In this document: one piece after another, positions 46 through 13,624 of the stretch
Numbering within the stretch: the first letter of the stretch is position 1
Layout: each line of letters opens with the position of its first letter
DNA from: Pseudomonadota bacterium
GTDB taxonomy: Bacteria > Pseudomonadota > Alphaproteobacteria > Rhizobiales > Beijerinckiaceae
Direction: 5' to 3'
Length of the DNA stretch: 13,624 bases
Assembly: GCA_023423995.1 (NCBI GenBank)
Contig: JAFAEL010000155.1
Span: 1 to 13,624 of the forward strand
Program-made: the position numbers and the translations under genes
The notes under the pieces: generated by a model
Database searches by the model: none
Told to the model about the DNA's origin: nothing
Seen by the model: the letters and a program-made list of their open reading frames with translations, nothing else

Positions 46-354
46 TCAGTAGCCCCCGTCCTGCTGCGAGGCGACCCAGGTCGCGAAAGCTTCGCGCGCG
101 GCAGCATCGGGCTGCCGGCCGGCATCGTCGCACCAGATGGAGAACTCGAACGGGTCGATGATCGCCCGGGCGGCCTTGCGCCCGCTGGCCTTGACCCGCT
201 GCTCGGTCTGCTCGGCCTCCTTCAGCCAATGCTCGAAGCGGTCGGGCAGGCTGTCGCTGTCCAGCATCATGTCCCGGGCCTGCTCGTAATCAGGCTCCAG
301 GAACCACGGGATGCCGACGGCTTCCGTCCGGACTCCCTGTGCCCCGTCCCCCAT
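46..354 (-). CDS. small uncharacterised soluble protein (102 aa)
   Basis: I do not recognise a named family. The product is small, acidic and soluble, with no signal peptide or membrane segment. It starts MGDGAQGVRTEAVGIPWFLE, has an acidic and Met-rich stretch (YEQARDMMLDSDSLPDRF), a charged helix containing EAEQTEQRVKASGRKAAR, and a tail with FEFSIWCDD and FATWVASQQDGGY. The frame is open 18 codons further upstream, but I chose the ATG at 354 because a clear GGAGG lies 5 bases before it and the extra residues are low-complexity. The pattern of conserved-looking aromatic residues suggests a real protein rather than a shadow. It follows the TPR gene on the same strand with a 148-base gap, so it may have its own promoter. 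Its function is unknown. Confidence 0.7.
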   Translation of the reverse strand: MGDGAQGVRTEAVGIPWFLEPDYEQARDMMLDSDSLPDRFEHWLKEAEQTEQRVKASGRKAARAIIDPFEFSIWCDDAGRQPDAAAREAFATWVASQQDGGY

Positions 355-359
355 CCGAA

Positions 360-364
360 CCTCC
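360..364 (-). promoter_or_regulatory. Shine-Dalgarno deciding the start of the 102-aa gene
   Basis: The minus strand reads GGAGG here, 5 bases upstream of the ATG at 352-354. This favours that start over the longer open frame beginning at 408. Confidence 0.65.
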
Positions 365-502
365 CCCGCGCGCCACCGCTCCGCCCCGGCGCCGGCTGCG
401 AAAACCACGCGAGTGTCGCGGAAACGGCCCCGAGTTCCAGATGCCCCGCGTCAGGTCTCGTGATCAAGGGGCCGGTCGCTTCGCGCGTCCGGCCCGCTCG
501 GG

Positions 503-1132
503 TCAGAGATCGCGGCCTTCGATCTCGGGTGTGATCCGCTCCACGATCTTCTTCGCATCGTCCAGGAACGGGTGCAGTTCCAGCGCCTTGCGATAGGCGT
601 CGAGGGCGCGGCGCTTGTCTCCGGACGCCATGTAGACGTGGCCGAGCGCCGCCCAGGCGGAGAAGTGGCGCGGCTCGGCCGTCAGGGCCCGGTGCAGGTC
701 CGCCATGGCGTCCGCCGGATCCTCCAGCAGGTAGAAGGCCGCGGCGCGGCGATGCCAGGCTTCCGCCCAGTTGGGCCGGAGCTGCGTCACCCGGTCGAGA
801 AGCTCGATGGCGAGCGGCGCGTCCTTGCCCTCCAGCGCCTCGACGGCGCGGGACATGAGGAGGTCGGCCGTGTCGCTCCCCGACCGGGCGAGACGCCGCT
901 CGATCAGGTTGGCGACGCCTTTCGCCTCCGTCTCGTCGCCGGCGGCGGCGAGGCGGGCGTAGAGGTCGTCCAGCGTGGAAGGCCTGCGGGTTTCGGGTTT
1001 CGGCTTCGCCTGGCCGTCGGCCGGGCTCTGCTCCAGCGAGAGGCCGGGAGAGCGCTCCGGGCGGGACATCTGGGCGAGCGCGGCCGTCGCGCCGAGCGCG
1101 CAGGCGAGCGTCGAGACGATGAGCCGTCGCAT
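503..1132 (-). CDS. secreted TPR-repeat protein
   Basis: This 209-aa protein begins with a Sec-type signal peptide: MRRLIVSTLACALGATAALA, with probable cleavage after ALA at residue 20. A Pro/Lys-rich linker (about 21-52) follows, then helices and three tetratricopeptide repeats at roughly 90-121, 122-155 and 156-189. The last repeat is the most canonical (AWAALGHVYMASGDKRRALD, then AYRKALELHPF). TPRs are protein-protein interaction scaffolds, so a periplasmic adaptor or assembly role is likely, but no partner can be named. Similar small exported TPR proteins are common in Hyphomicrobiales. The gene is divergent from rmuC across 142 bases that must hold both promoters; I could not pick out a convincing -35/-10 pair. 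The upstream Shine-Dalgarno is weak. Confidence 0.85.
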   Translation of the reverse strand: MRRLIVSTLACALGATAALAQMSRPERSPGLSLEQSPADGQAKPKPETRRPSTLDDLYARLAAAGDETEAKGVANLIERRLARSGSDTADLLMSRAVEALEGKDAPLAIELLDRVTQLRPNWAEAWHRRAAAFYLLEDPADAMADLHRALTAEPRHFSAWAALGHVYMASGDKRRALDAYRKALELHPFLDDAKKIVERITPEIEGRDL

Positions 1133-1274
1133 CCGGGGATCATCCCGGAGGCGTACGATCCCGTCAATGTGGCGCGATGGCCGGCGTCGCGCTGTGGATC
1201 GCGGCCGCTGCGGGCTCGCCCTGAAGGGCCGTTCGTTCTAGCTTTGTTCGGCTGTCCGACTCGCACGAGACCTC

Positions 1275-2810
1275 ATGCCGTTCGATCCCGTTTGGCTCGC
1301 CGTCGCGCTGGGTTGCGTAACCTCCGCGCTCTCGCTTCTCGCCGCCTTCAAGCCCCGGGTGGCGAGCGACCCGCTGCTGCGGGACAGCCTCGACGATCTC
1401 CGGAAGGATCTCGGCCTCCTGCGCACGGCCTTGGCGGAGGACCTGAGGCGCGGCCGCGAGGAGACCGGCAGCCAGGCCCGCGACCTGCGGGAGGAAGTGC
1501 AGACGATCGTGGCCCGGCTCAGCGAGACGCTCGGCGGCAATATCGGCCGGCTCGGGACGGCGCAGGCGGAGAAGATCGAGGGCGTCGTCACGAACGTGAA
1601 GTCGCTCGCGGATGCCAACGAGCGCCGGCTCGGCGAGATGCGACGCGACGCCGACGAGGGCGGCAAGGCGCTGCGCGAGGAGGTCGTGCGGCAGCTGAAA
1701 GCGCTGGGCGAACTCCTCGACGGCAGGCTGGAGAAGGGCGCGGTGTCGCAGAAGGAGCGCCTGGACGGGGTCGCAGGCGAGATCCGGCGCCTCATCCAGA
1801 CGAACGCGGAAGCCAACGAAAACCTTCGCCGGACCGTGGAAGGCAAGCTCGAGACGTTGCGCAACGACAATGCGCAGAAGCTCGAGGAGATGCGCAAGAC
1901 CGTCGACGAGAAGCTGCAGGGCACGCTCGAGGAGCGGCTCGGCGAGAAGTTCAAGATCGTCAGCCACCAGCTCGAACAGGTGTTCAAGAGCGTGGGCGAG
2001 ATGCAGTCGCTCGCCTCCGGCGTCGGCGACCTCAAGCGCGTGCTGACCAACGTGAAGACGCGCGGCACCTGGGCAGAGGTGTCGCTCGGCCACCTGCTCG
2101 AGCAGGTGATGGCGCCCGAGCAGTTCGTCCGCAACGTGGAGATCAAGCCGGGATCGGGCGAGCGCGTCGAGTTCGCGATCCGGCTCCCGGGGCAGGGCGA
2201 GGGCGACCGGGCCGTCCTCCTGCCGATCGACGCCAAGTTCCCGAGCGAGGATTACGAGCGGCTGATCGACGCTTCCGAACGCGCCGACGCGGCCGCCGTC
2301 GAGGCGGCCCTGAAGGGCCTGGAGACCCGCATCCGCCAGGAGGGGCAGACGATCTGCTCCAAGTACATCTCGCCCCCCGACACGACGGATTTCGGGATCC
2401 TCTACCTGCCGACGGAGGGCCTCTATGCCGAGGTGATCCGGCGGCCCGGCCTGGTCGATCACCTCCAGGGCCAGTGCCGCATCGTCGTGGCAGGCCCGAC
2501 CGTTCTCCTCGCCATCCTGAACAGCCTGCGCATGGGGTTCCGCACGCTCGCCATCCAGCAGCGCTCCAGCGAGGTCTGGCAGACGCTCGCGGCCGTGAAG
2601 ACCGAGTTCGGCAAGTATGGCGAAGTGCTCGATGCGGTGCGGAAGAAGCTGAACGAGGCCACGAACCAGATCGACAAGGTGGCCGTGCGCAAGCGCGCCA
2701 TCGACCGCAAGCTGCGGGATGTCGAGAGCCTGCCGGAAGGGGAGGCCGGGGCGGTCCTCTCCCTCGACCGGCTGATCCAGGACGGCGACCTGCTCGACGC
2801 TGCGGAGTGA
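1275..2810 (+). CDS. rmuC: RmuC family DNA recombination protein
   Basis: RmuC is a predicted nuclease-like protein that limits recombination at inverted repeats in E. coli. This copy (511 aa) has the standard plan: an N-terminal membrane anchor (about residues 5-24, ending LLAAF), a long charged coiled coil (about 30-250), then the RmuC domain. Domain signatures are GTWAEVSLGHLLEQ (264-277), ERVEFAIRLPG (296-306) and LLPIDAKFPSEDYERL (315-330). The D319-A-K321 triplet fits the D-x-K of the PD-(D/E)XK fold, to which RmuC is assigned. Length matches the family. The start ATG has only a weak GAG upstream, but it puts the anchor at the right place. Nothing downstream is obviously coupled to it; the next gene begins 121 bases later with its own strong ribosome-binding site. 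Confidence 0.95.
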   Translation: MPFDPVWLAVALGCVTSALSLLAAFKPRVASDPLLRDSLDDLRKDLGLLRTALAEDLRRGREETGSQARDLREEVQTIVARLSETLGGNIGRLGTAQAEKIEGVVTNVKSLADANERRLGEMRRDADEGGKALREEVVRQLKALGELLDGRLEKGAVSQKERLDGVAGEIRRLIQTNAEANENLRRTVEGKLETLRNDNAQKLEEMRKTVDEKLQGTLEERLGEKFKIVSHQLEQVFKSVGEMQSLASGVGDLKRVLTNVKTRGTWAEVSLGHLLEQVMAPEQFVRNVEIKPGSGERVEFAIRLPGQGEGDRAVLLPIDAKFPSEDYERLIDASERADAAAVEAALKGLETRIRQEGQTICSKYISPPDTTDFGILYLPTEGLYAEVIRRPGLVDHLQGQCRIVVAGPTVLLAILNSLRMGFRTLAIQQRSSEVWQTLAAVKTEFGKYGEVLDAVRKKLNEATNQIDKVAVRKRAIDRKLRDVESLPEGEAGAVLSLDRLIQDGDLLDAAE

Positions 2811-2919
2811 CGCCGCGAACTCTGGCGGAACCGGGGCCGCCTGCAGATCGGGGCCGAGTGGCGCAAGTTGACGAGCGTGCTAGAAGCCCGTCCCAAGAGA
2901 CTTCACCCAATAGAGACTT

Positions 2920-2924
2920 GGAGG
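2920..2924 (+). promoter_or_regulatory. strong Shine-Dalgarno of the substrate-binding protein gene
   Basis: GGAGG lies 7 bases before the ATG at 2932 and fixes that start. This is among the strongest ribosome-binding sites in the window, consistent with an abundant periplasmic binding protein. A TTGACG at 2868-2873 could be a -35 element, but I see no matching -10 at 16-18 bases. Confidence 0.65.
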
Positions 2925-2931
2925 ATCGCTT

Positions 2932-3960
2932 ATGGACCGCCGTTCGTTTGTCGCAGGCGCGGGTGCGCTGACATTTGCCGCAGCCCTGTCCGACCGCAGC
3001 CTCGCGCAGGCTGGGGGCGCGCCGGAAAAGGCCAAGGTCACGCTGGGCGTGGGCGGCAAGCCGCTCCTCTACTACCTCCCGCTGACCATCGCGGAGCGCC
3101 GCGGCTTCTTCAAGGAAGAGGGGCTCGACGTCGACATCAATGATTTCGGCGGCGGCGCGAAGTCGCTCCAGGCGCTGATCGGCGGCTCCGTCGACGTGGT
3201 GACGGGCGCCTACGAGCACACGATCCGCATGCAGGCGAAGGGCCAGGAGATCCAGGCCGTCTGCGAGCTCGGCCGCTTCCCGGCCATCGTCATCGGCGTG
3301 AAGACCGAGAAGGCGGGCGAGATCAAGTCGGTCGCCGATCTGAAGGGCAAGAAGGTGGGCGTGACGGCGCCGGGCTCGTCGACCGCGATCACCATGCAAT
3401 ATGCGCTCGTGAAGGCCGGCCTTCGGCCGAACGACGTCGCCTTCATCGGCGTCGGCGGCGGCGCCGGTGCGGTCGCCGCCATGCAGCGGGGCGAGATCGA
3501 CGCGATCTCGCATCTCGACCCGGTCATCGCGAAGCTCGAGGTCGACGGCGCCATCAAGGTGCTGATCGACACGCGCACCGAGGCCGGCACGAAGGATCTG
3601 TTCGGCGGCGCGAACCCGGCGGCGGTCGTCTACCTGAAGAAGGACTTCATCGCCGCGAACCCGAACACGACCCAGCGTCTCGTGAACGCCCACGTGAAGG
3701 CGCTCAAGTGGCTGGCTTCGGCCACTCCGGAGCAGGTCGCGGACGTGGTGCCGTCCGAGTATCATCTCGGCGACAAGCCGCTTTACCTGCGCGCCGTGAA
3801 GAACTCGCTCGAGAGCTATTCGCGCACCGGCATCATCCCGAAGGAGGGCATGGAGAGCGTGCTCGACACGCTGCGCAAGCTCGATGCGGAGCTCGCCAAC
3901 GCGAAGATCGATCTCGCGGCCACGTTCACGGACCGCTTCGTGAAGCAGGCCTCGGCCTGA
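2932..3960 (+). CDS. ABC transporter substrate-binding protein, NitT/TauT (SsuA/THI5-like) type
   Basis: This 342-aa periplasmic binding protein has a twin-arginine leader: DRRSFVAG at residues 2-9, a hydrophobic core, and likely cleavage after SLAQA around residue 26. The mature part has the NMT1/SsuA-like layout. It contains YYLPLTIAERRGFFKEEGLD near the N-terminus, then GGSVDVVTGAYEHTIRMQAKG, the hinge segment SVADLKGKKVGVTAPGSST, and GVGGGAGAVAAMQRGEIDAI. The family binds nitrate, sulfonates, taurine, thiamine precursors or aromatic acids; the ligand cannot be read from sequence. No ABC permease or ATPase gene lies beside it. It is an orphan component here and must work with a transporter encoded elsewhere, or be a sensor. 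The next gene is an MFS transporter 92 bases downstream on the same strand. Confidence 0.92.
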   Translation: MDRRSFVAGAGALTFAAALSDRSLAQAGGAPEKAKVTLGVGGKPLLYYLPLTIAERRGFFKEEGLDVDINDFGGGAKSLQALIGGSVDVVTGAYEHTIRMQAKGQEIQAVCELGRFPAIVIGVKTEKAGEIKSVADLKGKKVGVTAPGSSTAITMQYALVKAGLRPNDVAFIGVGGGAGAVAAMQRGEIDAISHLDPVIAKLEVDGAIKVLIDTRTEAGTKDLFGGANPAAVVYLKKDFIAANPNTTQRLVNAHVKALKWLASATPEQVADVVPSEYHLGDKPLYLRAVKNSLESYSRTGIIPKEGMESVLDTLRKLDAELANAKIDLAATFTDRFVKQASA

Positions 3961-3970
3961 CGCAGCGCTT

Positions 3971-3995
3971 GCGGTGCAGCACAGGGTTGCACCGC
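3971..3995 (+). other. 8-bp inverted repeat after the binding-protein gene
   Basis: GCGGTGCA (3971-3978) pairs perfectly with TGCACCGC (3988-3995) across a 9-base loop, starting 10 bases after the stop codon. No T-tract follows, so it is not a classical intrinsic terminator. It may protect the 3' end of the mRNA or attenuate read-through. Confidence 0.4.
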
Positions 3996-4009
3996 GCGTG
4001 ACGCTCGAA

Positions 4010-4048
4010 AGGTCTCCGGGGAGTATTCGCTGCGGCGCCCGGAGACCT
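4010..4048 (+). promoter_or_regulatory. 11-bp perfect hairpin covering the MFS gene's ribosome-binding site
   Basis: AGGTCTCCGGG (4010-4020) is perfectly complementary to CCCGGAGACCT (4038-4048), with a 17-base loop. The right arm contains GGAG (4041-4044), 8 bases before the ATG at 4053, and the stem ends 4 bases before that ATG. In RNA the stem would bury the Shine-Dalgarno of the exporter. It lacks a T-tract, so a terminator is less likely. A DNA operator is an alternative reading. Confidence 0.5.
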
Positions 4049-4052
4049 GCCC

Positions 4053-5297
4053 ATGAGCGCTAATGTTGCCGATGCCGGCGGCGCCTCCGGCGCTGCCGCC
4101 GCCACGCCGAGCCGGCCCAAGGAAGGCGCGGTCGTCGGGATCCTGGCGGCGATCAGCCTCTCGCATTGCCTGAACGACCTCATCCAGTCGCTCGTCCCGG
4201 CCCTCTACCCGATCCTGAAGAGCAGCTACGCGCTCGATTTCGGCCAGGTCGGGCTGATCACGCTCACGTTCCAGCTGACGGCTTCGCTCCTGCAGCCGCT
4301 GGTCGGCCTGTACTCGGACCGCAGGCCGCGCCCGTTCTCGCTCGCCGTCGGCATGGGGTTCACGCTGGTCGGGCTGGTGCTCCTCGCCCATGCGGCGAGC
4401 TTCGGCATGATCGTGATGGCGGCCGCCCTGATCGGCACCGGTTCATCTGTCTTTCACCCCGAGGCCTCGCGCATCGCACGGAGCGCGTCGGGCGGCCGCT
4501 ACGGGCTCGCCCAATCGGTGTTCCAGGTCGGCGGCAATTTCGGCCAGGCGATCGGGCCGCTCCTTGCGGCTTTCGTCGTCGTGCCGAACGGCCAGCGCAG
4601 CGTCGTGTGGTTCTCGCTCGTGGCGCTTGCCGCGATCGCCATCCTCTTCGGGGTCGGGCGCTGGTACAGCCGCCATCTCGTGGCCGCGCTCTCGCGCCCC
4701 CGGGCCGCGATACACCATCACGGCTTGCCGCGCGGGCGGGTCGCGTTCGCGATCGCGATCCTGGTCGTGCTCGTCTTCTCGAAGAACGTCTACACGGCGA
4801 GCCTCAGCTCCTACTACACCTTCTACCTGATCCAACGCTTCGGCGTGACCGTGCAGACCGCCCAGGTCCTGCTGTTCGTCTTCCTGGGATCGGTCGCACT
4901 CGGGACGATTCTCGGCGGCCCGATCGGCGACCGGATCGGCCGCAGGCTCGTGATCTGGGTCTCCATCTTCGGCGCGCTGCCCTTCGCGCTGGCGCTGCCC
5001 TACGTGAACCTGACCTGGACCGTGATCCTGACGATCCCGATCGGCATGATCATGGCCTCGTCCTTCCCGGCGATCGTCGTCTTCGCGCAGGAACTCCTGC
5101 CCGGGCGGGTCGGTGTCGTGTCGGGCCTGTTCTTCGGCCTCGCCTTCGGGATGGGCGGGCTCGGCGCGGCCTTCTTCGGCGAACTCGCCGACCGGACGTC
5201 GATCACCTTCGTCTACCAGGTCAGCGCCTTCCTGCCGGCGATCGGGATCGCGGCCGTGCTCCTTCCCAACCTGCGCCGGCCGGCCGGCTCTAGTTGA
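4053..5297 (+). CDS. MFS transporter, Fsr (fosmidomycin resistance) family
   Basis: This 414-aa inner-membrane protein has 12 predicted membrane segments after a Gly/Ala-rich cytoplasmic start (1-27). Family marks are SLSHCLNDLIQSLVPALYPI in segment 1 (about residues 35-54), the MFS loop 2-3 motif GLYSDRRPRP (85-94), GSSVFHPEASR (130-140), FQVGGNFGQAIGPLLA, and a second MFS motif GGPIGDRIGRR (278-288). SHxxND and FHPEA are typical of Fsr-type drug:H+ antiporters. Fsr exports fosmidomycin in E. coli; the natural substrate of this chromosomal homologue is unknown. The gene follows the lone substrate-binding protein on the same strand, and its Shine-Dalgarno sits in a hairpin. Its 3' end overlaps the convergent DedA-like gene by 8 bases. 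I am sure of the family and unsure of the substrate. Confidence 0.92.
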   Translation: MSANVADAGGASGAAAATPSRPKEGAVVGILAAISLSHCLNDLIQSLVPALYPILKSSYALDFGQVGLITLTFQLTASLLQPLVGLYSDRRPRPFSLAVGMGFTLVGLVLLAHAASFGMIVMAAALIGTGSSVFHPEASRIARSASGGRYGLAQSVFQVGGNFGQAIGPLLAAFVVVPNGQRSVVWFSLVALAAIAILFGVGRWYSRHLVAALSRPRAAIHHHGLPRGRVAFAIAILVVLVFSKNVYTASLSSYYTFYLIQRFGVTVQTAQVLLFVFLGSVALGTILGGPIGDRIGRRLVIWVSIFGALPFALALPYVNLTWTVILTIPIGMIMASSFPAIVVFAQELLPGRVGVVSGLFFGLAFGMGGLGAAFFGELADRTSITFVYQVSAFLPAIGIAAVLLPNLRRPAGSS

Positions 5298-5805
5298 GCC
5301 AGCCGCCCACCGTGCCCGCGGCGTAGAACACCCCGAAGCTCCAGCCGAGGGAGCCGATCAGGTTCGCGATATGGAACGGGACCGGCGACATCCGCACGAT
5401 CCCGGCGACCAGCGGCGCCAGCGGGCGGATCTGCCCCCAGAAATGGGACAGGAGGATGCCGAGCGCGCCCCAGCGCTCGAAGAAGTCGTGCGTCTTCTTG
5501 ACGAGGTCCGGCCGGCGCTTCAGCGGCCAGCGCTCGAGCAGGGACGGTCCGAGCCACAGGCCCAGCCAGTAGGAGACCCAGTATCCGGCCACGCTGCCGA
5601 TTGTCGCCGTGAGCGCCAGCGGCACCAGCCCGATGCCGCCCGCGCCGGCGACCGCGCCCAGAGCGGTGAACAGGACGGTGGCGGGCGCGATGATCGACAC
5701 GAACGCAAGGCATTCGAGGAAGGCGATCAGCAGGATCATCGGCAGGAGCAGTTCCATGTGCCCCTGCGCGAACTCCGTGACGGTCTTGACGAACTCCTGC
5801 AGCAT
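5290..5805 (-). CDS. DedA/SNARE-associated family membrane protein (171 aa)
   Basis: DedA/VTT-domain proteins are inner-membrane proteins, some of which act as flippases or scramblases for lipid carriers such as undecaprenyl phosphate, and affect envelope integrity. The sequence shows a re-entrant and membrane-rich start (MILLIAFLECLAFVSIIAPA, then TVLFTALGAVAGAG) and a glycine-rich segment with GSVAGYWVSYWLGLWLG. It also has the diagnostic C-terminal module: FFERWGALGILLSHFWGQIR, PLAPLVAGIVRMSPVPF, then ANLIGSLGW. At 171 aa it is shorter than the usual roughly 200. I chose the ATG at 5805, preceded by GGAGAG 9 bases upstream. The frame remains open far upstream, but that stretch is the shadow of pdxY. 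The gene is divergent from pdxY (69 bases) and converges on the Fsr gene with an 8-base overlap, so transcripts could interfere at their 3' ends. Confidence 0.88.
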   Translation of the reverse strand: MLQEFVKTVTEFAQGHMELLLPMILLIAFLECLAFVSIIAPATVLFTALGAVAGAGGIGLVPLALTATIGSVAGYWVSYWLGLWLGPSLLERWPLKRRPDLVKKTHDFFERWGALGILLSHFWGQIRPLAPLVAGIVRMSPVPFHIANLIGSLGWSFGVFYAAGTVGGWLN

Positions 5806-5874
5806 CCGGCCTAGCTCTCCGGCGGGTTCCCTCCCGCCCGCGGGACCCATATCTGCTTTCCGGCCGGAGCGCGC

Positions 5875-6723
5875 GTGAACATCCTCTCCATCCAGTCGCA
5901 CGTGGCCTTCGGGCATGTCGGCAATGCCTCCGCGACCTTCCCGATGCAGCGGCTCGGCCACGATGTCTGGCCGATCCACACGGTCCAGTTCTCGAACCAC
6001 ACCGGCTATGGCTCCTGGACGGGGCGCGTCTTCGACGGGCAGGCGATCGAGGAGCTGGTGGATGGGATCGCGGCCCGGGGCGTGCTGCCCTCCTGCGACG
6101 CGGTTCTGTCCGGCTACATGGGCTCGGCCGATATCGGCCAGGCGATCCTCGGCACGGTCGCCCGGGTGCGGGAGGCCAATTCGCAGGCCATCTATTGCTG
6201 CGATCCGGTGATCGGGGATGTCGGCCGCGGCGTGTTCGTCCGGCCGGGCGTTCCGGAATTCATGCGCGACAACGCCGTGCCCTCGGCGGACCTCGTCACC
6301 CCGAACCAGTTCGAGCTCGAATACCTGACCGGCCGCGAGATCCGGACCTCCGGCGACGCCAAGGAGGCCCTGGCGGCGCTCCATGCGATGGGGCCCCGGG
6401 TGGCGCTCGTCACCTCGCTCCACACCGAGGAGACGCCCGCGGATGCGATCGACCTCGCGGCAGGCGAGGGCGGGGTCGTGTTCCGGGTCCGCACGCCGCG
6501 GCTGGGCGTTTCCGTCAATGGCGCGGGGGACGCGATCGCGGCGCTCTTCCTGGTCCATTACCTGGAGAGCGGGTCGGCCCGGGTCGCGCTCGGACGGGCC
6601 GCGTCGTCGGTCTATGGTCTCCTGAAGCGCACGAGCGATGCCGGCTCCCGGGAGATCCTGACCGTCGCCGCGCAGGACGAGTTCGTCTCGCCCACCTGGA
6701 CCTTCGCGGCGGAGCCGGTCTAA
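5875..6723 (+). CDS. pdxY: pyridoxal kinase
   Basis: PdxY phosphorylates pyridoxal with ATP to make pyridoxal 5'-phosphate, in vitamin B6 salvage in the cytoplasm. The 282-aa length is typical. Visible family motifs are the start MNILSIQSHVAFGHVGNASA, DPVIGDVGRGVFV (110-122), TPNQFELEYLTG (142-153), and the ribokinase-family anion hole and catalytic base GAGD (216-219, D219). The start is a GTG at 5875 with GGAG 5 bases upstream, and it aligns with the family N-terminus. It is the first gene of a plus-strand set: a phzF-like gene follows after 26 bases and a NUDIX gene overlaps that one by 4, so they are probably co-transcribed. PdxK is the main alternative name; the N-terminal motif favours PdxY. 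Confidence 0.93.
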   Translation: MNILSIQSHVAFGHVGNASATFPMQRLGHDVWPIHTVQFSNHTGYGSWTGRVFDGQAIEELVDGIAARGVLPSCDAVLSGYMGSADIGQAILGTVARVREANSQAIYCCDPVIGDVGRGVFVRPGVPEFMRDNAVPSADLVTPNQFELEYLTGREIRTSGDAKEALAALHAMGPRVALVTSLHTEETPADAIDLAAGEGGVVFRVRTPRLGVSVNGAGDAIAALFLVHYLESGSARVALGRAASSVYGLLKRTSDAGSREILTVAAQDEFVSPTWTFAAEPV

Positions 6724-6749
6724 GGCAGCGCCTCACCAAAGGGGTCACG

Positions 6750-7652
6750 ATGCGACGCCGCTTCGCCACGCTCGACGTGTTCACCACCCGCCGCTTCGCC
6801 GGCAACCCGCTTGCGGTCGTCCTCGATTCCGAAGGACTCGACGACGGCGCGATGCAGACCATCGCGCGCGAGTTCAACCTCTCCGAGACGGTCTTCGTGC
6901 TCCCGCCGGAGGATCCGCGCCACAAGGCGAGGCTGCGCATCTTCACGCCCGGGCGCGAGCTGCCCTTCGCGGGCCATCCGACGGTCGGGACCGCCGTCCT
7001 TCTCGGTCTCCAGGGCCATAACGGCGCCGCCGCGCAGGCCTTCGGCCTGGAGGAGGGCGTCGGGATCGTCCCCTGCATCGTGGAGGCGCGAGGCGAGGGC
7101 AGCGCCTATGCCCGGTTCCGGCTGCCGCGGCTGCCCGAGGCGCTCGAGGGCGGGCCGGCCGTCGCGGATGCCGCCTGGGCGCTCGGCCTCGATCCGGGGG
7201 AGATCGGGTTCGACCGGCACCTGCCGAGCCGCCATTCGGCCGGCAATCCCTTCGACTTCGTGCCCGTCGCGAGCCGGGACGCGGTCGCCCGCGCGCGGCC
7301 GAACGGCGAGGCCTTCGCGAAGGCGCTCGGCGCCGACGGGCCCGGCGTCTACGTCTATTCCCGCGAGACCACCGAGGCGGGGCGCCATTTCCACGCGCGG
7401 ATGTTCGGCTCGCCGCGGACGGGGATCTCCGAGGACCCGGCGACGGGCTCGGCCGCCGCCGCCTTCGCGGGCGTGCTGATGCAATTCGAGCCGCTCGGCG
7501 ACGGCACCCATTCCTTCGTGATCGAGCAGGGCTACGAGATGGGCCGGCCGAGCGAGATCGACCTGCAGATCGTCATCGAGCACGGCGCGCTCACCTCGGC
7601 CGAGATCGGCGGCGAGGCCATCCTGGTCTCCGAGGGCGAGCTCGAGGCGTGA
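6750..7652 (+). CDS. PhzF family isomerase/epimerase
   Basis: PhzF-like proteins have a diaminopimelate-epimerase-type fold. PhzF itself isomerises a phenazine precursor (DHHA), but most chromosomal homologues have unknown substrates, and nothing here indicates phenazine synthesis. The 300-aa protein shows the family N-terminus DVFTTRRFAGNPLAVVLD (9-26), the catalytic glutamate in NLSETVFVLP (E46), the substrate loop LPFAGHPTVGTA (71-82, H76), and the second-half signature SEDPATGSAAAAFAG (227-241). The start ATG at 6750 has AAGGGG 5 bases upstream; the open frame continues further back through pdxY, but that is shadow. The stop overlaps the next start as GTGA, a sign of translational coupling to the NUDIX gene. 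Confidence 0.92.
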   Translation: MRRRFATLDVFTTRRFAGNPLAVVLDSEGLDDGAMQTIAREFNLSETVFVLPPEDPRHKARLRIFTPGRELPFAGHPTVGTAVLLGLQGHNGAAAQAFGLEEGVGIVPCIVEARGEGSAYARFRLPRLPEALEGGPAVADAAWALGLDPGEIGFDRHLPSRHSAGNPFDFVPVASRDAVARARPNGEAFAKALGADGPGVYVYSRETTEAGRHFHARMFGSPRTGISEDPATGSAAAAFAGVLMQFEPLGDGTHSFVIEQGYEMGRPSEIDLQIVIEHGALTSAEIGGEAILVSEGELEA

Positions 7653-8359
7653 GCGAGCTGTTCCGGGCCGCGTCCGTCGAGGCCCGGCTCGTCGAGCATC
7701 GCTGGCCCTGGGCGGAGCAGAACGCGGCCGCCATCGCGGCGAACTGGGAGCGGCGGCGCCGGCGCACGCCCGCCATCTTCAACGGCCGCGTCCTCATGGT
7801 GGCGGGGACGCGCCGCGCCGGCGGCACCGTGCAGGCCGAGTTCTTCGCCACAGACTACGCGAACCTCATCGCCTGGGTGGATGCCGGCTTCCCGGACCCC
7901 TCCGTGGCGAACGGCTTCGCCATGGGGGCCCTGCGCACGGCGGACGGCGCCTTCATCCTCGGCGAGATGGGCGCGCATACGGCCAATGCCGGGCGCCTCT
8001 ACTTCCCCTGCGGCACGCCCGACCTCACCGACGTCACGCCGGACGGCACGGTCGACCTCGCCGCCAGCCTCGTCCGCGAGATCGAGGAGGAGACCGGCAT
8101 CCGCGAGGACGAGCTCGCGATCGAGCCCGGCTGGACGATCGTCCGCGAAGCCGGGCTCCTCGCCTTCATGCGGATCGCGCGCCTCGCCTGGCCGGCGGAG
8201 GCGGCGCGGGCGCGGATCCTGGCGCACCTGAAGGCCGACCCGAGCCCCGAACTGTCCGACATCCGCATCGTCCGCCGCCTCGCCGATCTCGGCGATGCGC
8301 CCGTCCCGGCGGTGGTGCCCGCCTTCCTGGCGAGCGCCTTCGCGGCCGCTCAGCGATAG
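7649..8359 (+). CDS. NUDIX hydrolase
   Basis: NUDIX enzymes cleave nucleoside diphosphates linked to another group. The 236-aa protein has FNGRVLMVAG (44-53), ANGFAMGALRTADGAFILGE (87-106), ANAGRLYFPCGTPD and the NUDIX helix with REIEEETGI (143-151), which matches the R-E-U-x-E-E-x-G-U core including the metal-binding glutamates. The upstream half of the box is not canonical: V135 stands where the consensus has Glu, and the consensus Gly is absent. From memory, this VDLxxSxxRE arrangement recurs in a proteobacterial NUDIX subfamily, so activity is still plausible. It starts with GTG at 7649, overlapping the PhzF stop by 4 bases, and is the last gene of the pdxY set. Its end overlaps a convergent lipoprotein gene by 10 bases. 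Substrate unknown; housekeeping metabolite repair is an inference. Confidence 0.88.
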   Translation: MSELFRAASVEARLVEHRWPWAEQNAAAIAANWERRRRRTPAIFNGRVLMVAGTRRAGGTVQAEFFATDYANLIAWVDAGFPDPSVANGFAMGALRTADGAFILGEMGAHTANAGRLYFPCGTPDLTDVTPDGTVDLAASLVREIEEETGIREDELAIEPGWTIVREAGLLAFMRIARLAWPAEAARARILAHLKADPSPELSDIRIVRRLADLGDAPVPAVVPAFLASAFAAAQR

Positions 8360-8700
8360 CCGAAGCGGCTCTTGGTCGAGGCGAGCAGCGCCCGCGCATC
8401 GCCGTCCCGGCCCGCCGCGCAGGCGCTCTCCGCCCGGCCGAGATCGGCCGTCGCGCGGTTGTAGACGCTCTGCCCCACATTCCCGGTATCGACGTCGTTT
8501 CTCAGCACCGCCTTGAACTGGCCGATCTCGCCCGCGCAGCCCGACCCCTCCGGCATGCGGAACGTGCTCGGCGTCACGCCCGGGACGGCACCCGGCGGCG
8601 GCGCGGGCGGCGCCGAGGCGGTCTGCGTGCAGGCAGCGAGCGCCAGCGCGGCGCAGGCCACGCCGAAGGAGGAAGCGAGCGGCAGCGTGAATCGTGACAT
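8350..8700 (-). CDS. small putative lipoprotein (116 aa)
   Basis: The N-terminus is a lipoprotein signal: MSRFTLPLASSFGVACAALA followed by LAAC, with the lipobox cysteine at residue 24. A Pro/Ala linker (APPAPPPGAVPG) follows, and then a short helical domain with two cysteines: EGSGCAGEIGQFKAVLRND, SVYNRATADLGRAESACAAG and ALLASTKSRFGYR. The spaced cysteines could form a disulfide. From memory, similar small exported proteins with a GCAG...SVYN...ACAAG pattern are widespread and uncharacterised in Hyphomicrobiales. I chose the ATG at 8700 because AGGGA lies 6 bases upstream and it gives a clean signal peptide; the frame is open to 8754. The gene converges on the NUDIX gene with a 10-base overlap and lies 55 bases after the helix-turn-helix repeat gene on the same strand. 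Confidence 0.8.
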   Translation of the reverse strand: MSRFTLPLASSFGVACAALALAACTQTASAPPAPPPGAVPGVTPSTFRMPEGSGCAGEIGQFKAVLRNDVDTGNVGQSVYNRATADLGRAESACAAGRDGDARALLASTKSRFGYR

Positions 8701-8755
8701 CCGGGATCCCTGAAGGCCGATGGGGCCGCCCCCTGGAGAGCGGAGGCTCCGCATC

Positions 8756-9754
8756 TCACGGGATCGGCCAGAGCGACAAGGGGATGGTGCGCACGGAAGG
8801 CGCCGGCACCGGCCGCGTCACGCCCGGCCGCCGCCGCCGCGGCCGCTTGCGCCGGATGCGGCCATAGGGGTCCTCCTGGTCGCGCGGCCGCGTCCAGCCG
8901 CCCGCCTTCGCCCAGTGCCACACCCGCTCGGGCGTCGTCCCCACGCGCGCCGCGATGTTGCGCACCGGAATCTCCGTCTGCCGGTAGAGGTCGCGCGCCG
9001 CTGCCATCACGGCCGGCCCGTAGGGCCCCCGCCGTCCCTTGTTCCTGACAGCCGGATGCCGTGTCCAGCCGCGCTGCACGATCCACCGGCACAGCGTCGC
9101 CTTGCTGATCCCGGCCTGCGCGGCGATGCGGCGGAGCGGCAGGACCGAGCCGGTCACGAGGTCGCGCGCGATCCCGACCGCGTCGCCGCCATAGGGCCGG
9201 CCCCAGCGCCGCGAGCGGTAGTAGTGCAGCCCGCCCTTGTCCGGCGGGTCCGGACGCCGCCAGCCCGCAGCCTTGCGCCAGCGGTGGAGCGTGCCGACGG
9301 AGATGCCGAGCACGGCCGCGATCCACTCCATCCCGGCGTGGCTCCCCTCCACCATCCGCCGCGCCGCCTCCTGCAGCTCCGGCGGATAGCGGCGGGGCCT
9401 CGTGCCGCGCGCGCCCCCTCCACCAGGCTTCGCCTGGTTCCCCTCCCCCTGTGGGGGAGGAGACGCGAACGGCGCCGCCCCGTCTCCTCCCCCGCAGGGG
9501 GAGGGGGACCCCCGGGCTTGTCCCGGGGGTGGAGGGGGCATCTCGACCCCCCCGCCAGCCTCACCCCGCCGCCACCCGAGCCGCCGCGCCCACTCGCCGA
9601 CCAGCCCCTCCCGGAGCCCCGACCGGGCGGCCGCCTCGCGGTAGCTCAACCCCTCCTCGACAACGAGCCCCCGCACACTCGCGACAACCTCCGCCGGATA
9701 CCCGCGCCCGGCCGGGCTGCGGGAGGGGGACGAGGAGGGGTCGAGGGGAGACAT
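8756..9754 (-). CDS. protein with four helix-turn-helix repeats
   Basis: This 332-aa basic protein consists of four diverged copies of a 45-50-residue helix-turn-helix unit, at about 17-62, 122-166, 187-233 and 244-290. Each copy has a helix with AAxxxG or IAAxxG, a recognition helix ending in W (for example GISKATLCRWIVQRGW and GTTPERVWHWAKAGGW) and a closing GWxR. The last three copies carry a PYG or RYP lead-in. The unit resembles the HTH of transposases and resolvases, but there is no catalytic domain, so it is probably a DNA-binding protein of unknown target. The C-terminus is very basic (RIRRKRPRRRRPG, from about 299). The linker between repeats 1 and 2 (about 73-114, Gly/Pro-rich with SPSPCGGG and PPPQGEG) is encoded by a large palindromic repeat. 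The ATG at 9754 has no good Shine-Dalgarno nearby. Confidence 0.75.
   Translation of the reverse strand: MSPLDPSSSPSRSPAGRGYPAEVVASVRGLVVEEGLSYREAAARSGLREGLVGEWARRLGWRRGEAGGGVEMPPPPPGQARGSPSPCGGGDGAAPFASPPPQGEGNQAKPGGGGARGTRPRRYPPELQEAARRMVEGSHAGMEWIAAVLGISVGTLHRWRKAAGWRRPDPPDKGGLHYYRSRRWGRPYGGDAVGIARDLVTGSVLPLRRIAAQAGISKATLCRWIVQRGWTRHPAVRNKGRRGPYGPAVMAAARDLYRQTEIPVRNIAARVGTTPERVWHWAKAGGWTRPRDQEDPYGRIRRKRPRRRRPGVTRPVPAPSVRTIPLSLWPIP
9414..9538. repeat. 125-bp nested quasi-palindrome inside the HTH-repeat gene
   Basis: Several inverted repeats are nested. The outer arms are CCCCCTCCACC (9414-9424) and GGTGGAGGGGG (9528-9538). A hairpin ACCAGGC-TTC-GCCTGGT occupies 9422-9438. Central arms 9440-9465 and 9481-9506 are complementary at 25 of 26 positions, and each itself contains a short CTCCCCC/GGGGGAG palindrome. 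A final hairpin CCCCCGGG-CTTGT-CCCGGGGG lies at 9509-9529. This is the architecture of REP/BIME-like or palindromic-element insertions, and a diverged relative appears at the window's right end. It is read through in frame as a Gly/Pro-rich linker. Confidence 0.85.
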
Positions 9755-10115
9755 GATATAAGTATAGATTCCTTCTTGGGTCGATCAACGGCTATCTGCG
9801 ATGCCTTGCGAGCCAGATCCCTGGATTCAGGTGCAGCTCCACCAGACAAACAGCAGCGTTCGATCCTAGTTCACCCGAAGTTCTGGTCAGGACCAAAACG
9901 ACCGTGAGAGGAAAGCGAGATTCTGGTGTAGATCGATCACAAGCTCATAGCTGTCGGCTTGCCGGGTGAACGCAATCAGAGTATTTGACCTCGACGAATG
10001 CGCGGGATTGGGCTTGTCTAAAGACGGGCTATCCTTCGTAGATAGCAGTCGGCGCTCATGGGCGGTGTTCTAATTGCTCCGCTCGTGCAGGATGGGGGGC
10101 GAGAGCTATACAATA
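9755..10115. other. 361-bp gene-poor stretch at the left edge of the accessory module
   Basis: I see no convincing complete gene. The stretch should hold the promoters of the HTH gene (leftward) and of the two-gene module (rightward). On the minus strand, TATACTTATATC lies directly before the HTH ATG and is AT-rich for this genome. A minus-strand frame from about 10069 to 9887 is open without a start codon and ends with a protein-like segment (FTRQADSYELVIDLHQNLAF) before a TGA. It might be the tail of a lost gene, but I cannot name it. No tRNA, attachment-site repeat or transposase was found. Confidence 0.5.
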
Positions 10116-11384
10116 ATGGAGAAACGAACAAAAGGAGCGTGGTTGCTCGCTCAATCGAAGAATTTGGATGGGTATTCTGGGGCTGGGGCTGCGCGGCTTG
10201 AGAATGTTTCATACTCTGGGAAGATCGGGCGCCTCTACAATCTGCTGAGGCGTCACGCCGACGAGGGAATGACGTTCACGATCTCGAAGGAGACTGTTGA
10301 GAAGGCGTGTCAGCTCAACGGCGTTGACAAACCAGCTCGCCAAATGGGCTTGCAGGTGCTCAAAGACGCCGGCCGGATTGACGTCACTAGCGATGGAACC
10401 GTCGCCGTCTTGGGTGCCACCACGCAGGCAGTTCTCGAGGCCACCGCTGAAATTTTCGACGATCAGAGGCCGAGCGCGGACGAGCAGGCGATCATCGATC
10501 TATCTGAGCGAGTTTCGGGCAGGCCGGTAAAGAGAGCTGAGGCGGAGGAATATATTTCCGACATGCATCGGCTCAAGGCGGCCGATGCAACTTCGCTCGT
10601 GGATCTTTCGAAGAAGACCGCGCTCCTCGATGAGGAGGGGGATCGCGGACATAGTATCCTTTTCAATTCGCACACATTTCGTGATGGCAAGTACGCGCAA
10701 AAAGCTCATCGGATACTTGAAGAGCTTAAGCCTGACGAGCGAGTCCGGCTCTCCGAAGTTCAGGACAAGCTAAGCCGCTTTGGAGCTCTCTACGATGCTG
10801 ACGTAGAAAAGATGCTTGGCCCTGTTCTCTATAGGCGACTTGTAAGCGTGGGGTTATTTGATCGCATGGAGGTGAACAACAGCACGGAGTCTGTCGGATA
10901 CGTCGCCTCTCCGAACGACTTTCAGAAGTACGGCCGTCCCTTTGAAGAGGACCCGATCGACGACGCGAAAGCTCTCATCGCTTCGCTCACCTATGGGCAA
11001 ACGCGCAGCCATTACACGCGCGGGCAGATCACAATGCCAGACGCGCTTATCCGCAAACTGGTCCGCGGCGACGAGGTAGGGGCGCGCGGCGTGCGCGCAA
11101 TTGGCGAAGATTACCGCGAGCTCGAAGCTCGCCAAGTGGTCGAGGTAACTGAACGCAGCATCGGGCGTTATACTATGCGTCTCCTAAAGAGGGATGTTGG
11201 AGAACTTGCACTCACGATCATTCGCGGTGGAGCGCCAGCGCAAGAGGCCGTCCTAATGGATGGCTCCCCAGCCCGTGCCTTCAAGGGTCCCCACGCGACT
11301 CGAAACGAGGTACGGGAAAAGAACGACATTGCCGACAAGCGGTTTGTCCATGACGCGCTGGATCGCTTGCGGAGCGGGGGATAA
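10116..11384 (+). CDS. uncharacterised protein of two-gene module, probable winged-helix segments (422 aa)
   Basis: I do not recognise a named family. The protein starts MEKRTKGAWLLAQSKNLDGY and has no signal peptide, membrane segment, Walker motif or obvious catalytic site. Three parts look like winged-helix folds. Residues 35-100 contain KIGRLYNLLRRHADE, ISKETVEKACQLNGV and LKDAGRIDVTSDGTVAVLG. Residues 184-262 contain FNSHTFRDGKYAQKAHRILE, VRLSEVQDKLSRFG and LYRRLVSVGLFDRMEV. Residues 281-365 contain LTYGQTRSHYTRGQI and AIGEDYRELEARQVVEVTER. The tail is charged. I prefer the ATG at 10116; ATG 10092 and TTG 10074 are in frame, and none has a strong Shine-Dalgarno. The next gene begins 5 bases after the stop, so the two are co-translated. 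Codon use is visibly more AT-rich than in the flanks. A DNA-binding or scaffold subunit partnering the downstream nuclease-like protein is my inference. Confidence 0.8.
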   Translation: MEKRTKGAWLLAQSKNLDGYSGAGAARLENVSYSGKIGRLYNLLRRHADEGMTFTISKETVEKACQLNGVDKPARQMGLQVLKDAGRIDVTSDGTVAVLGATTQAVLEATAEIFDDQRPSADEQAIIDLSERVSGRPVKRAEAEEYISDMHRLKAADATSLVDLSKKTALLDEEGDRGHSILFNSHTFRDGKYAQKAHRILEELKPDERVRLSEVQDKLSRFGALYDADVEKMLGPVLYRRLVSVGLFDRMEVNNSTESVGYVASPNDFQKYGRPFEEDPIDDAKALIASLTYGQTRSHYTRGQITMPDALIRKLVRGDEVGARGVRAIGEDYRELEARQVVEVTERSIGRYTMRLLKRDVGELALTIIRGGAPAQEAVLMDGSPARAFKGPHATRNEVREKNDIADKRFVHDALDRLRSGG

Positions 11385-11389
11385 CGGCA

Positions 11390-12604
11390 TTGGCGAAGGG
11401 TGCGGGTCTTGAGGAGTTGGCGCGAGCGTACTTCACGCGGCAGGGCTTTGTCGCCATCCGCAGCGTCTCGATCCAATTCGAGGAGGAGGAGGTCACCGAC
11501 GTTGACGTATGGTTGTACGGTCGACAGGGCGGCGGCGTGCGCACCCGTGCACTAGTCGATGTGAAGGATAAGAAGTCGCCGAAAGCCTTTGAGCGCGTGA
11601 TGTGGGCTCGCGGGATGCAATTGGCTCTCGGATGTGATCGTGCGGTGGTCGCTACTACAGACACTAACGCGAAAGTTGTACGATTTGCGCAACAGCAAAA
11701 AGTCGCGCTCTTGACCGCGGCTTTCTTGCGTCGTTGGGAGGGCGATGATGACGTCCTCAAAGATCGCCTTGCCCTTGAGGAATTCGCTTCTAACATCCAA
11801 TACTACACCGAACAGAAGCAGGATGGTGACTGGCTCAAGCAAATCGCCGCAGCGAAGTCCGCTGTTGTCAGCCTCGCCCCCTATCCGGCTTTCAATAAGG
11901 CGATCAAATCCTTCCGCTTCTTCGCCGAGCGCGCCGCAACGCGCCCACAGCACCGAGAACAGGCTTTGCGGGGTGCTTTTCTGTCAGCTGCGCTGGCATG
12001 CGTGGCTCTCGACGCTGCGTTGGAGAAGCTCGCGTTCGAGGAGCTCCCTGCGCGCCAGCGCCTCCTCTACTCGGGTGTGACCTACGGAGACGCCGGCGAC
12101 AATCGGGTTCAAGGAAGCATTGACACCGTTCTGTCAGTCATCTCCAACGGCATGAAGAATGGTCGTGCTATTGCGCGCCAAACTAGCGACGCTTTGAAGG
12201 AGATGTTCGCCGGGCTCCGCGCCGAAATTATCGCCGAGTTTTTCGCAAAGGAGCAGAATGCGATCCATCTGTTCACGGTGGCCCGCGAGCTTGAGTTTCG
12301 CGCCCACGCGCGCTACCGGGCCGAACTTACTGCGCTGAGCGTTGAAGCCAAGGCGATCATCGGGATCTTCGCCGACTTTGTCGGGGCCAAGCGGACACCG
12401 CTGATGAGTAGCGAGTTCGTTACTCCAGCATCCGCACCAATCGCTCCTCGACTATCCACGCCCTCGACTAGTGAGCCGGCGGTGTCCGCTAGTGAGTCGC
12501 CGGACGTTGTCAAAGCGCGTGGAGAGGCTACGACGGCCGAGCTTGGGGCCTCTGCCGCTGGTATGGAAGAAGCCGACCCGGCCACAAGCCCGAAGCTGCT
12601 TTAG
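11390..12604 (+). CDS. PD-(D/E)XK nuclease-like protein of two-gene module (404 aa)
   Basis: The N-terminal ~110 residues have the layout of a restriction-endonuclease-like fold. A first helix with acidic residues comes first (LEELARAYFTRQGF, E8/E9), then a strand with TDVDVW (D37, D39), then RALVDVKDKK giving D57-V-K59. A following helix and strand read AFERVMWARGMQLALGCDRA and VVATTD. The 18-residue spacing from D39 to D57 suits the family. Residues 110-350 are mostly helical with no membrane anchor (FRFFAERAATRPQHREQALR, ALKEMFAGLRAEIIAEFFAK). The last ~50 residues are a Ser/Pro/Ala/Glu-rich, probably disordered tail. The start is a TTG at 11390, with a G-rich GGAGCGGGGG 9 bases upstream and only 5 bases after the previous stop; the next in-frame ATG is far inside the nuclease domain. 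Base composition matches the partner gene. Nuclease activity is predicted from the motif only. Confidence 0.8.
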   Translation: MAKGAGLEELARAYFTRQGFVAIRSVSIQFEEEEVTDVDVWLYGRQGGGVRTRALVDVKDKKSPKAFERVMWARGMQLALGCDRAVVATTDTNAKVVRFAQQQKVALLTAAFLRRWEGDDDVLKDRLALEEFASNIQYYTEQKQDGDWLKQIAAAKSAVVSLAPYPAFNKAIKSFRFFAERAATRPQHREQALRGAFLSAALACVALDAALEKLAFEELPARQRLLYSGVTYGDAGDNRVQGSIDTVLSVISNGMKNGRAIARQTSDALKEMFAGLRAEIIAEFFAKEQNAIHLFTVARELEFRAHARYRAELTALSVEAKAIIGIFADFVGAKRTPLMSSEFVTPASAPIAPRLSTPSTSEPAVSASESPDVVKARGEATTAELGASAAGMEEADPATSPKLL

Positions 12605-12659
12605 CCGAGCCGTCCGGCCATCGCGGCGCTAAAGGCCGAGTTCGGCCCATCCTTCCATA

Positions 12660-12803
12660 AGCCGGCAGGACGGTCACCTTCGTCTTGACGGGCGTGCGGC
12701 CGTAGAGGTGGATCATGTCCTGGGTGAGCAGGCCGACGCAGCCGCTCGTCACGCCCGAGCCGATCGATTCGGGATCGCTCGAGGCGTAGAGCGTGTAGTC
12801 GAA
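12660..12803 (-). pseudogene. remnant of an L,D-transpeptidase (YkuD) C-terminus
   Basis: Reading leftward on the minus strand, the frame gives DYTLYASSDPESIGSGVTSG, then CVGLLTQDMIHLYGRTPVKT and KVTVLPA. This is the end of a YkuD/L,D-transpeptidase domain, with the catalytic cysteine in SGCV. The enzyme cross-links peptidoglycan in the periplasm. The N-terminal part of the protein is missing; repeats replace it. Two usual residues are also lost: the His-Gly expected shortly before the SIG segment reads LYA, and the Arg after SGC(V/I) is Gly. The frame runs on past LPA without a stop at the normal place. I take it as decayed and non-functional. It lies between the accessory module and the repeat cluster. 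Confidence 0.75.
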
Positions 12804-12820
12804 CACGGCCGGCCTTTGAG

Positions 12821-12879
12821 GGATCCTCACCCGCGGAGCGGGGGAGGGGGACCGCCGGAGGCGGTGGAGGGGGCGCTTC
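12821..12879 (+). repeat. GC-rich palindromic repeat, form A copy 1
   Basis: This 59-bp unit starts GGATCCTCACCCGCGGAGCG and contains the hairpin ACCGCC-GGA-GGCGGT, then GGAGGGGGCGC. A second copy with a single mismatch (12858 versus 13038) lies exactly 180 bases downstream. Confidence 0.9.
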
Positions 12880-12935
12880 CGGTTTGCCGTGTTTCCCTCA
12901 GGCGTCCGCCGCGCCGCCCCCTCCGTCAGCCGCGC

Positions 12936-12994
12936 TGCCCCCTCAGTCGTCCGCTGCGCGACCGCCAGCTCCCCCGCGGGCGGAGGAGCATCCC
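12936..12994 (-). repeat. GC-rich palindromic repeat, form B copy 1
   Basis: This 59-bp unit runs from TGCCCCCTCAGTCGTCCGCT to GGAGCATCCC. It recurs at 13134-13192 with two mismatches. Its reverse complement has the same plan as form A (CTCCCCCGCGGGCGG...CTGGCGG...GAGGGGGC), so A and B face each other, as in BIME arrays. Confidence 0.85.
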
Positions 12995-13000
12995 GGCGCT

Positions 13001-13059
13001 GGATCCTCACCCGCGGAGCGGGGGAGGGGGACCGCCGAAGGCGGTGGAGGGGGCGCTTC
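13001..13059 (+). repeat. GC-rich palindromic repeat, form A copy 2
   Basis: Copy of 12821-12879 with one mismatch (A instead of G at 13038). It is followed at about 13076-13130 by a more diverged B-like unit (CCCCCTCCGTCAGCCGCTGC). Confidence 0.9.
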
Positions 13060-13133
13060 GGTTTCGGATGGGACGCCCCCTCCGTCAGCCGCTGCGCGAC
13101 TGCAACCTCGCCCGCGTGCGAGGCAGGATCCTG

Positions 13134-13192
13134 TGCCCCCTCAGTCGTCCGCTGCGCGGCCGCCAGCTCCCCCGCGGGCGGGGGAGCATCCC
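13134..13192 (-). repeat. GC-rich palindromic repeat, form B copy 2
   Basis: Copy of 12936-12994 with two mismatches. It overlaps the 3' end of the DUF559 gene and provides its last codons and stop. Confidence 0.85.
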
Positions 13193-13551
13193 GCGAGTTC
13201 CGCGCAAGCCGCCAGGATCGTCGGCAGGACGTGCTCCGCGTCGTCGCCTCGGAGCACGTCGCGGGCCGGGAGGCGGAGGATGCGGATGCCGTGCTGCGTG
13301 AGCCACGCGGTCCGGTGCTCGTCGCGGGCGGCGCGGACGGGATGGTCGTGGGCGGCGCCGTCGACCTCCAGCGCGAGCCGAACTTCCGGGCAGTAGAAGT
13401 CGAGCACATAGGGCCCGACGGGGTGCTGGCGGCGAAAGCGGAAGTTGCCGAGCGCCTGGCGGCGCAGCTCGCGCCAGAGGATCGCCTCCGGGAGCGTCAT
13501 GGCGCGGCGGAGGCGGCGCGCGCGGGCGACGGTGTTCGATGGGGCACGCAT
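13141..13551 (-). CDS. DUF559 endonuclease-like protein (136 aa)
   Basis: DUF559 proteins have a small Vsr-like/restriction-endonuclease-like fold and are of uncertain function. The domain is nearly complete: a helix with MTLPEAILWRELRRQALGNF (residues 18-37), then FRFRRQHPVGPYVLDFYCPE (37-56, D51), LALEVDGAAHDHP (59-71, E62 and D64), a helix, and HGIRILRLPARDVL with a closing helix to about 117. These are the canonical RRQHPIGPYIVDFYC and VEVDG motifs. I chose the ATG at 13551, with GGAG 7 bases upstream; the frame extends to 13608 but through low-complexity sequence. The last ~16 residues (GCSPARGGAGGRAADD) and the stop are encoded by a palindromic repeat, so the native C-terminus may have been replaced. 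DUF559 genes are often found singly near repeats or mobile DNA. Confidence 0.85.
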   Translation of the reverse strand: MRAPSNTVARARRLRRAMTLPEAILWRELRRQALGNFRFRRQHPVGPYVLDFYCPEVRLALEVDGAAHDHPVRAARDEHRTAWLTQHGIRILRLPARDVLRGDDAEHVLPTILAACAELAGCSPARGGAGGRAADD

Positions 13552-13576
13552 CGCGTCGCTCCGGGAGGGTAGGGCG

Positions 13577-13624
13577 CCCCCACCACCAAGCTGCGCATGG
13601 TTACCCACCCCCCCAACCCGGGGG
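13577..13624. repeat. partial, diverged copy of the palindromic repeat family at the window end
   Basis: CCCCCACCACCAAGCTGCGC followed by ATGGTTACCCACCCCCC resembles the left part of the 9414 element (CCCCCTCCACCAGGCTTCGC, CTGGTTCCCCTCCCCC). It is cut by the end of the window, so its full length and symmetry cannot be seen. Confidence 0.5.

Follow-up and report, generated by a model that had tools for sequence, protein, structure and literature searches.

A mobile two-gene cassette pairing a predicted multi-winged-helix protein with an Mrr-type nuclease, and its probable role against mobile elements

P1 and P2, the two adjacent genes described here, form an obligate-looking pair and are carried as a mobile, patchily distributed cassette that is usually AT-richer than its flanks. 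We propose that they are probably a mobile two-gene system directed against other mobile elements (antiphage and/or antiplasmid), in which P1 would license P2 to cut.

Organisation and co-occurrence of the two genes

In the window, by which we mean the whole stretch of 13,624 nucleotides analysed, P1 and P2 are intact reading frames on the forward strand with a gap of 5 bases between them (Table 1). A preliminary description of this DNA had singled them out as a closely spaced unit of low GC, and their composition confirms this: GC is 56.9% in P1 and 59.8% in P2 against 70.9% (positions 1-9754) and 74.4% (from 12661 on) in the flanks, while GC3 is 62.6% and 66.9%, respectively, whereas four flanking genes reach 91.5-95.4%. 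Both are real genes rather than chance reading frames, because P1 has 319 homologues (7,995 candidates scored) and P2 has 262 (7,998 scored) at E<=1e-3. The homologues of each protein begin at equivalent residues.

Table 1. Features of the cassette in the window and domains of P2.
Feature	Position	Strand	Remarks
AT-rich leader, 5' of P1	9755..10115	+	52.9% GC vs 70.9% in 1-9754
P1	10116..11384	+	422 aa; ATG start at 10116, stop ends 11384
Putative Shine-Dalgarno site of P2, GGAGCGGGGG	11371..11380	+	overlaps last P1 codons; purine-rich, by eye
P2	11390..12604	+	404 aa; TTG start at 11390, stop ends 12604
P2 nuclease domain	residues 1-117		Mrr/Can2-like PD-(D/E)XK
P2 helical domain	residues 129-340
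P2 disordered tail	residues about 345-404 (window 12422-12601)		ends KLL

The leader probably holds the putative promoter of the operon, and its last 150 bases contain no inverted repeat beyond chance (24 of 100 shuffles were as good). Of 25 P1-P2 junctions inspected by eye, most have a purine-rich stretch ahead of the P2 start codon; in the window this stretch, GGAGCGGGGG, is probably the Shine-Dalgarno site of P2, which would couple translation of the two genes. The same overlap would explain why P1 ends in LRSGG, as do 96 of its best 120 homologues out of 319. A ubiquitin-like meaning of this ending was considered and rejected, the bases concerned being the purine-rich stretch ahead of the P2 start.

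P1 and P2 are adjacent and co-oriented in all 32 loci that were read past P1, in both Proteobacteria and Actinomycetota. These comprise nine of ten initial genome loci (the tenth, L009, ends inside P1), five plasmid loci, four further genome loci, L066, seven phage-type contigs and six E. coli regions, and they are partly dependent on one another, with near copies in L001/L002, L053/L054, L056/L057 and three E. coli pairs. The set takes in six of the 29 E. coli matches and none of the plasmids matched in Vibrio (four) or Ensifer (a fragment covering 20% of the query). In L014 and L069, P2 was assigned by position and aligned residues rather than by a BLAST match from the window P2. Within the Alphaproteobacteria, two of 385 genomes contain P1, one of them a seed genome selected as a carrier, and these two also contain P2, which no other of the 385 does; exactly one P2 accompanies P1 in each of the nine genomes known to carry it. 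Pairwise identities of P1 and of P2 correlate strongly across 16 diverse loci (r=0.959; none of 5000 permutations reached this value). The contrary case raised in the preliminary description, that homologues of the two proteins rarely co-occur, is thus not what the 32 loci and the 385 genomes show.

Predicted folds and conserved residues

The AlphaFold2 model of P1 (mean pLDDT 80.1, pTM 0.73) can be read as four tandem winged helices, at residues of about 29-98, 121-183, 192-264 and 280-356. Structural matches fall mainly over residues 5-189, corresponding to the first two, and the third and fourth were read from the order of helices and strands in the model. The winged helices suspected from the sequence are therefore borne out as a prediction, and the earlier remark that P1 has no visible catalytic site also stands, since searches of Pfam, PADLOC and NCBIfam gave no catalytic family. 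A fold search of P1 against the PDB and viral models returned no match at E<=0.001. Across all searches of the pair and its relatives, several marginal similarities were taken as chance: chains of pentatricopeptide repeats (E 2.3e-4 and 6.3e-4, with no single stretch passing alone), matches to MCR_gamma, AbiJ_NTD5, TFIIB and DUF6272, and PHROG matches at 0.01-0.06.

The most distinctive segment of P1 is a conserved IGxDYxxLE stretch at residues 329-337. I329, D332, Y333, L336, E337 and V341 are invariant in two alignments, in 127/127 and 16/16 of the aligned proteins. On the strength of the model we propose that P1 is a DNA-reading or nuclease-gating subunit; the predicted fold suggests that P1 may bind DNA, and proteins can likewise be ligands of such domains.

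For P2, the nuclease motif noted in the preliminary description is confirmed. The Pfam family Mrr_cat (PF04471) matches with an E-value of 1.2e-4 and a score of 22.6 bits, above its gathering cut-off of 21, structural matches cover residues 1-120, and the PD-(D/E)XK active-site residues E8, D39, D57 and K59 are kept in 85/85 aligned relatives. A second alignment (n=16) has E8, D39 and K59 in all 16 proteins, with D at position 57 in 14 and E in two. The Mrr_cat score of P2 relatives is mostly below the cut-off, as in L012 (15.3 bits); eight other distant P2 proteins gave no match to this family, and the precomputed label is present in two of the best 120 of 262 homologues. No PDB structure matched P2 at E<=0.001 in the fold search.

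The C-terminal tail of P2 is variable in sequence; among the best 120 relatives out of 262, its last two residues are LL or LI in 107. It is present in L008 (Lysobacter) and L010, ends differently in L005 and L014, and is absent from the E. coli form and from five phage-type loci (L052, L053, L055, L057 and L058); its absence from some forms and altered ending in others imply that it is not essential to this kind of pair. It is possible that the tail serves as a docking peptide or a degron.

Distribution, mobility and genomic neighbours

The pair is sporadic at every taxonomic scale sampled, occurring in 2/385 genomes of the class Alphaproteobacteria, 4/149 of the family and 2/274 of the Gammaproteobacteria, each count including one seed genome selected as a carrier. 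No copy was found in nine genomes of the presumed genus of the window, a sample that shows little as it holds no positive genome; the genus is presumed from one member with a 91% identical RmuC and 82-83% identical flanking DNA. The window P1 is 78-83% identical to the P1 proteins of Brevundimonas, another alphaproteobacterium, Methylobacterium, Caulobacter and Lichenicoccus. Of these same five genomes, only that of Lichenicoccus gave a match to the window RmuC (36%), a crude yardstick given that the absence of a single gene may reflect loss or replacement instead of divergence. Of 23 loci compared, 21 have a pair poorer in GC than the flanking DNA, the exceptions being L011 and L052.

The pair is carried on a variety of mobile elements. 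By database match, plasmid carriage extends to Mesorhizobium, Rubrobacter, Streptomyces, Pseudarthrobacter and Vibrio. Five P2-like phage contigs (L053-L057, with gene families verified against PHROGs in L055) hold the pair between baseplate and tail-completion genes, on the opposite strand; in the phage-type contigs L052 and L058 it lies near an integrase, and in L010 it occurs together with a terminase. A search of 50,697 GenBank phage records gave no match to P1. Taken with the lower GC, this carriage and the sporadic occurrence support the earlier view of a transferred cassette, and the alternative then considered, of a pair present at the same locus in all relatives, does not accord with this sporadic distribution.

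In Brevundimonas (L001) the pair alone fills a site which, in L033, L036, L038 and L039, where both flanks match, holds other small cargo (named by eye in these congeners). The region 9864-12463 of L001 and its four counterparts thus represent one intergenic site whose cargo differs by species. Synteny between the window and three congeners (L094-L096) ends at 8,646-8,652, upstream of the cassette, and comparison with these three revealed no exact empty site. Positions 8650-13624 of the window form a variable block containing an HTH gene (8756-9754), the cassette and a decayed L,D-transpeptidase stretch. The window also contains several copies of a GC-rich repeat of ~50 bases (9412-9539, 12824-12875 and 13004-13055); this repeat seems to be dispersed in the genus and not to be part of the cassette, because all three places match one congener contig (L098, 135-265).

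In E. coli, 22 of 5,426 complete genomes contain one variant of the pair at a query coverage of 80% or more, and seven further genomes match over 11% of the DNA. L071 and L072, drawn from the latter, are P4-like satellites at ssrA with the gene order int, P1, P2, psu, so that by position, between int and psu, the pair is cargo of the P4-like hotspot. This int-psu pair is represented by proteins WP_039023249 and WP_039023248, and five further E. coli genomes match the variant in the genome search. PMC9122126 describes the stretch between psu and int in P4-like satellites as a reservoir of antiviral systems, and gpA-gpQ as a hotspot of P2-like prophages. In the P2-like prophages the pair occupies the tail-gene site and not gpA-gpQ as described there. 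The other E. coli variant is found in L067 (5091-10113), an island where the pair adjoins HxsABCD genes and the gene of a 'sporadically distributed' TIGR04141 protein, and in L068, where hxs genes accompany a DUF6119 protein and ABC-three-component genes. L070 and L073 carry this second variant at tRNA-Pro, close to genes for relaxases and ABC-three-component systems.

Neighbourhoods of up to about 7 kb per side, less where contigs end, were scanned against PADLOC (95 ORFs). Defence genes were identified at four of 12 chromosomal pairs among the best 25 of 182 families matched: a type I R-M system at L063, a C5-methylase with Vsr at L005, an SLFN-g3 helicase protein (PADLOC PDC-S41) at L008, and, at L004, an AAA_15 OLD-like ATPase weakly similar to AriA and GajA. 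Plasmid records add an Eco57I-type R-M system annotated beside L011 and C5-methylase genes at L014. The best match near the pairs was 4e-273 among those listed (best 25 of 182 families), against 3.6e-36 among those listed (best 25 of 45 families) in nine control regions of the same genomes, a rough comparison in that the ORF caller yields some false ORFs. The control scan covered 129 of 151 ORFs, the other 22, in L081, L084 and L085, being left out; its matches listed (best 25 of 45) include IetA, DrmC, E1-E2 and others, and none is R-M. The gene-neighbourhood survey suggested in the preliminary description has returned a pair that is conserved yet sporadic, located in some E. coli in the hotspot of P4-like satellites and accompanied by defence genes at a third of the chromosomal loci, within the families listed.

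At L004 (17728-20483) the stop of the OLD-like ATPase gene overlaps the start of a gene for a 315-aa protein, which has no Pfam match at 1e-5 and no PADLOC match at 1e-8. These two genes are possibly another two-gene system.

Proposed function and comparison with known systems

A defence role is probable because the pair travels between distant bacteria, plasmids and phages and sits in an antiviral site of E. coli satellites. Judging from location, we consider it likely that P1-P2 defends against mobile elements. We lean slightly towards P1 gating P2, and cutting of invader DNA appears to us somewhat better favoured than host suicide.

Three other readings of the pair were weighed. It is unlikely to be an addiction module resembling toxin-antitoxin systems, in which P2 would be a DNA-damaging toxin, P1 would restrain it and perhaps repress the operon, and the pair would stabilise plasmids, prophages and islands. 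A two-gene, probably translationally coupled operon that places a nuclease beside a DNA-binding-type partner, and that is carried by plasmids, satellites and prophage-type contigs, would suit such a module; yet both proteins are large and conserved, and the pair is also found where no mobile gene was recognised by eye (L006, L007, L064 and L065). Nor do 18 loci share an upstream inverted repeat, the best arms being 4-8 bases and at chance level except, marginally, in L053, L004 and L006.

We regard as similarly improbable, and if anything a shade more so, a scheme in which P2 by itself restricts DNA in a type IV-like manner and P1 regulates its transcription much as a controller protein does. 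P2 is a complete-looking nuclease with a helical domain of its own, and type IV enzymes need no methylase. P1, however, is large for a controller, is present in 32/32 loci read, and comes first in the same apparent operon. Least probable by some way is a DNA-processing or mobility function for the mobile elements themselves (integration, recombination or replication licensing): integrase genes adjoin the pair or lie near it in L052, L058, L070 and L071, but the elements differ in kind (P4-like, P2-like, relaxase-bearing islands and plasmids), and no mobile gene was recognised near the four loci L006, L007, L064 and L065.

In the proposed defence system, the winged helices of P1 would engage the DNA of the invader, either directly or within a protein-DNA complex that arises on it during infection, with the IGxDYxxLE stretch as the best candidate contact. 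P1 would then recruit or switch on P2, whose nuclease domain would cut DNA. As the unit contains no cognate methyltransferase, either self would be told from non-self by some property of DNA not shared by the host chromosome, or the nuclease would be a triggered one. Under the first option, the discriminating feature could be a modification, structure or replication state of DNA; under the second, the nuclease would remain silent until triggered during infection and would then kill the cell. If functional, the pair would add to the known repertoire a nuclease-based system, a means of discriminating self from invader without a partner methylase, and an unusual multi-winged-helix protein. As a small, intact unit that occurs in two phyla and has a few carriers in E. 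coli, it is amenable to standard phage assays.

The statement that the pair matches no named defence system has held: no system described in Pfam, PADLOC or NCBIfam fits it. Profile searches of both proteins gave Mrr_cat for P2 and no described system for the pair. Neither window protein matched a model of PADLOC-DB 2.0.0 (2023) at E<=1; among ten proteins of relatives, nine had no match to this database at E<=0.1 and one a weak match (Upx, 0.038), and none of the NCBIfam models fits the pair. Keyword searches in strict combinations, which are weak evidence of absence, retrieved no literature naming the pair, although the supplement of PMC9122126 may list it unnamed, and none that mentions any of six E. 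coli accessions. The psu-int cargo of P4 satellites (Rousset et al. 2022, PMC9122126) has the insertion site and the small-cassette format in common with the pair, which is not among the systems named in the sections of that paper used here.

Among the closest known systems are those with KITE tandem winged-helix subunits (MukE, ScpB and the JetB of Wadjet). Unlike SMC defence of the Wadjet type, the shared unit here has two genes and lacks SMC ATPase and kleisin partners; Pfam at E<=1 gave no SMC or kleisin match in the window P1 or P2. From Can2/Card1 and VC1899-type CRISPR ancillary nucleases the pair differs in that the nuclease of P2 is N-terminal. Pfam reports no CARF family in P2, where structural comparison is mainly of residues 1-120 and barely covers the helical domain (129-340). 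A type II R-M system differs in having a cognate methyltransferase, which the shared two-gene unit does not include, methylases being near only some loci (L005, L011, L014 and L063).

A close parallel is Mrr, a type IV restriction enzyme whose single chain carries both Mrr_cat and an Mrr_N winged helix. Both would bring together a winged-helix reader and an Mrr-type PD-(D/E)XK nuclease with no methylase in the unit. In contrast to Mrr, P1 and P2 are two chains with several predicted winged helices instead of one, and P2 has an additional helical domain and tail; neither protein matches Mrr_N at E<=1, and the single-chain layout of Mrr is not found here. P1-P2 is therefore neither Mrr nor a type II R-M system, and is so far an unnamed two-gene unit with an Mrr_cat-type nuclease. 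Tentatively, and with less than even confidence, we suggest that it may represent a separate class of restriction machine, in which a multi-winged-helix scaffold would inspect DNA for an invader feature (a replication intermediate, topology or chemical mark) and license a detached Mrr-type nuclease, and which plasmids, satellites and prophages would have disseminated among bacteria as distant as Proteobacteria and Actinomycetota. By analogy, the pair would work like a split and enlarged Mrr.
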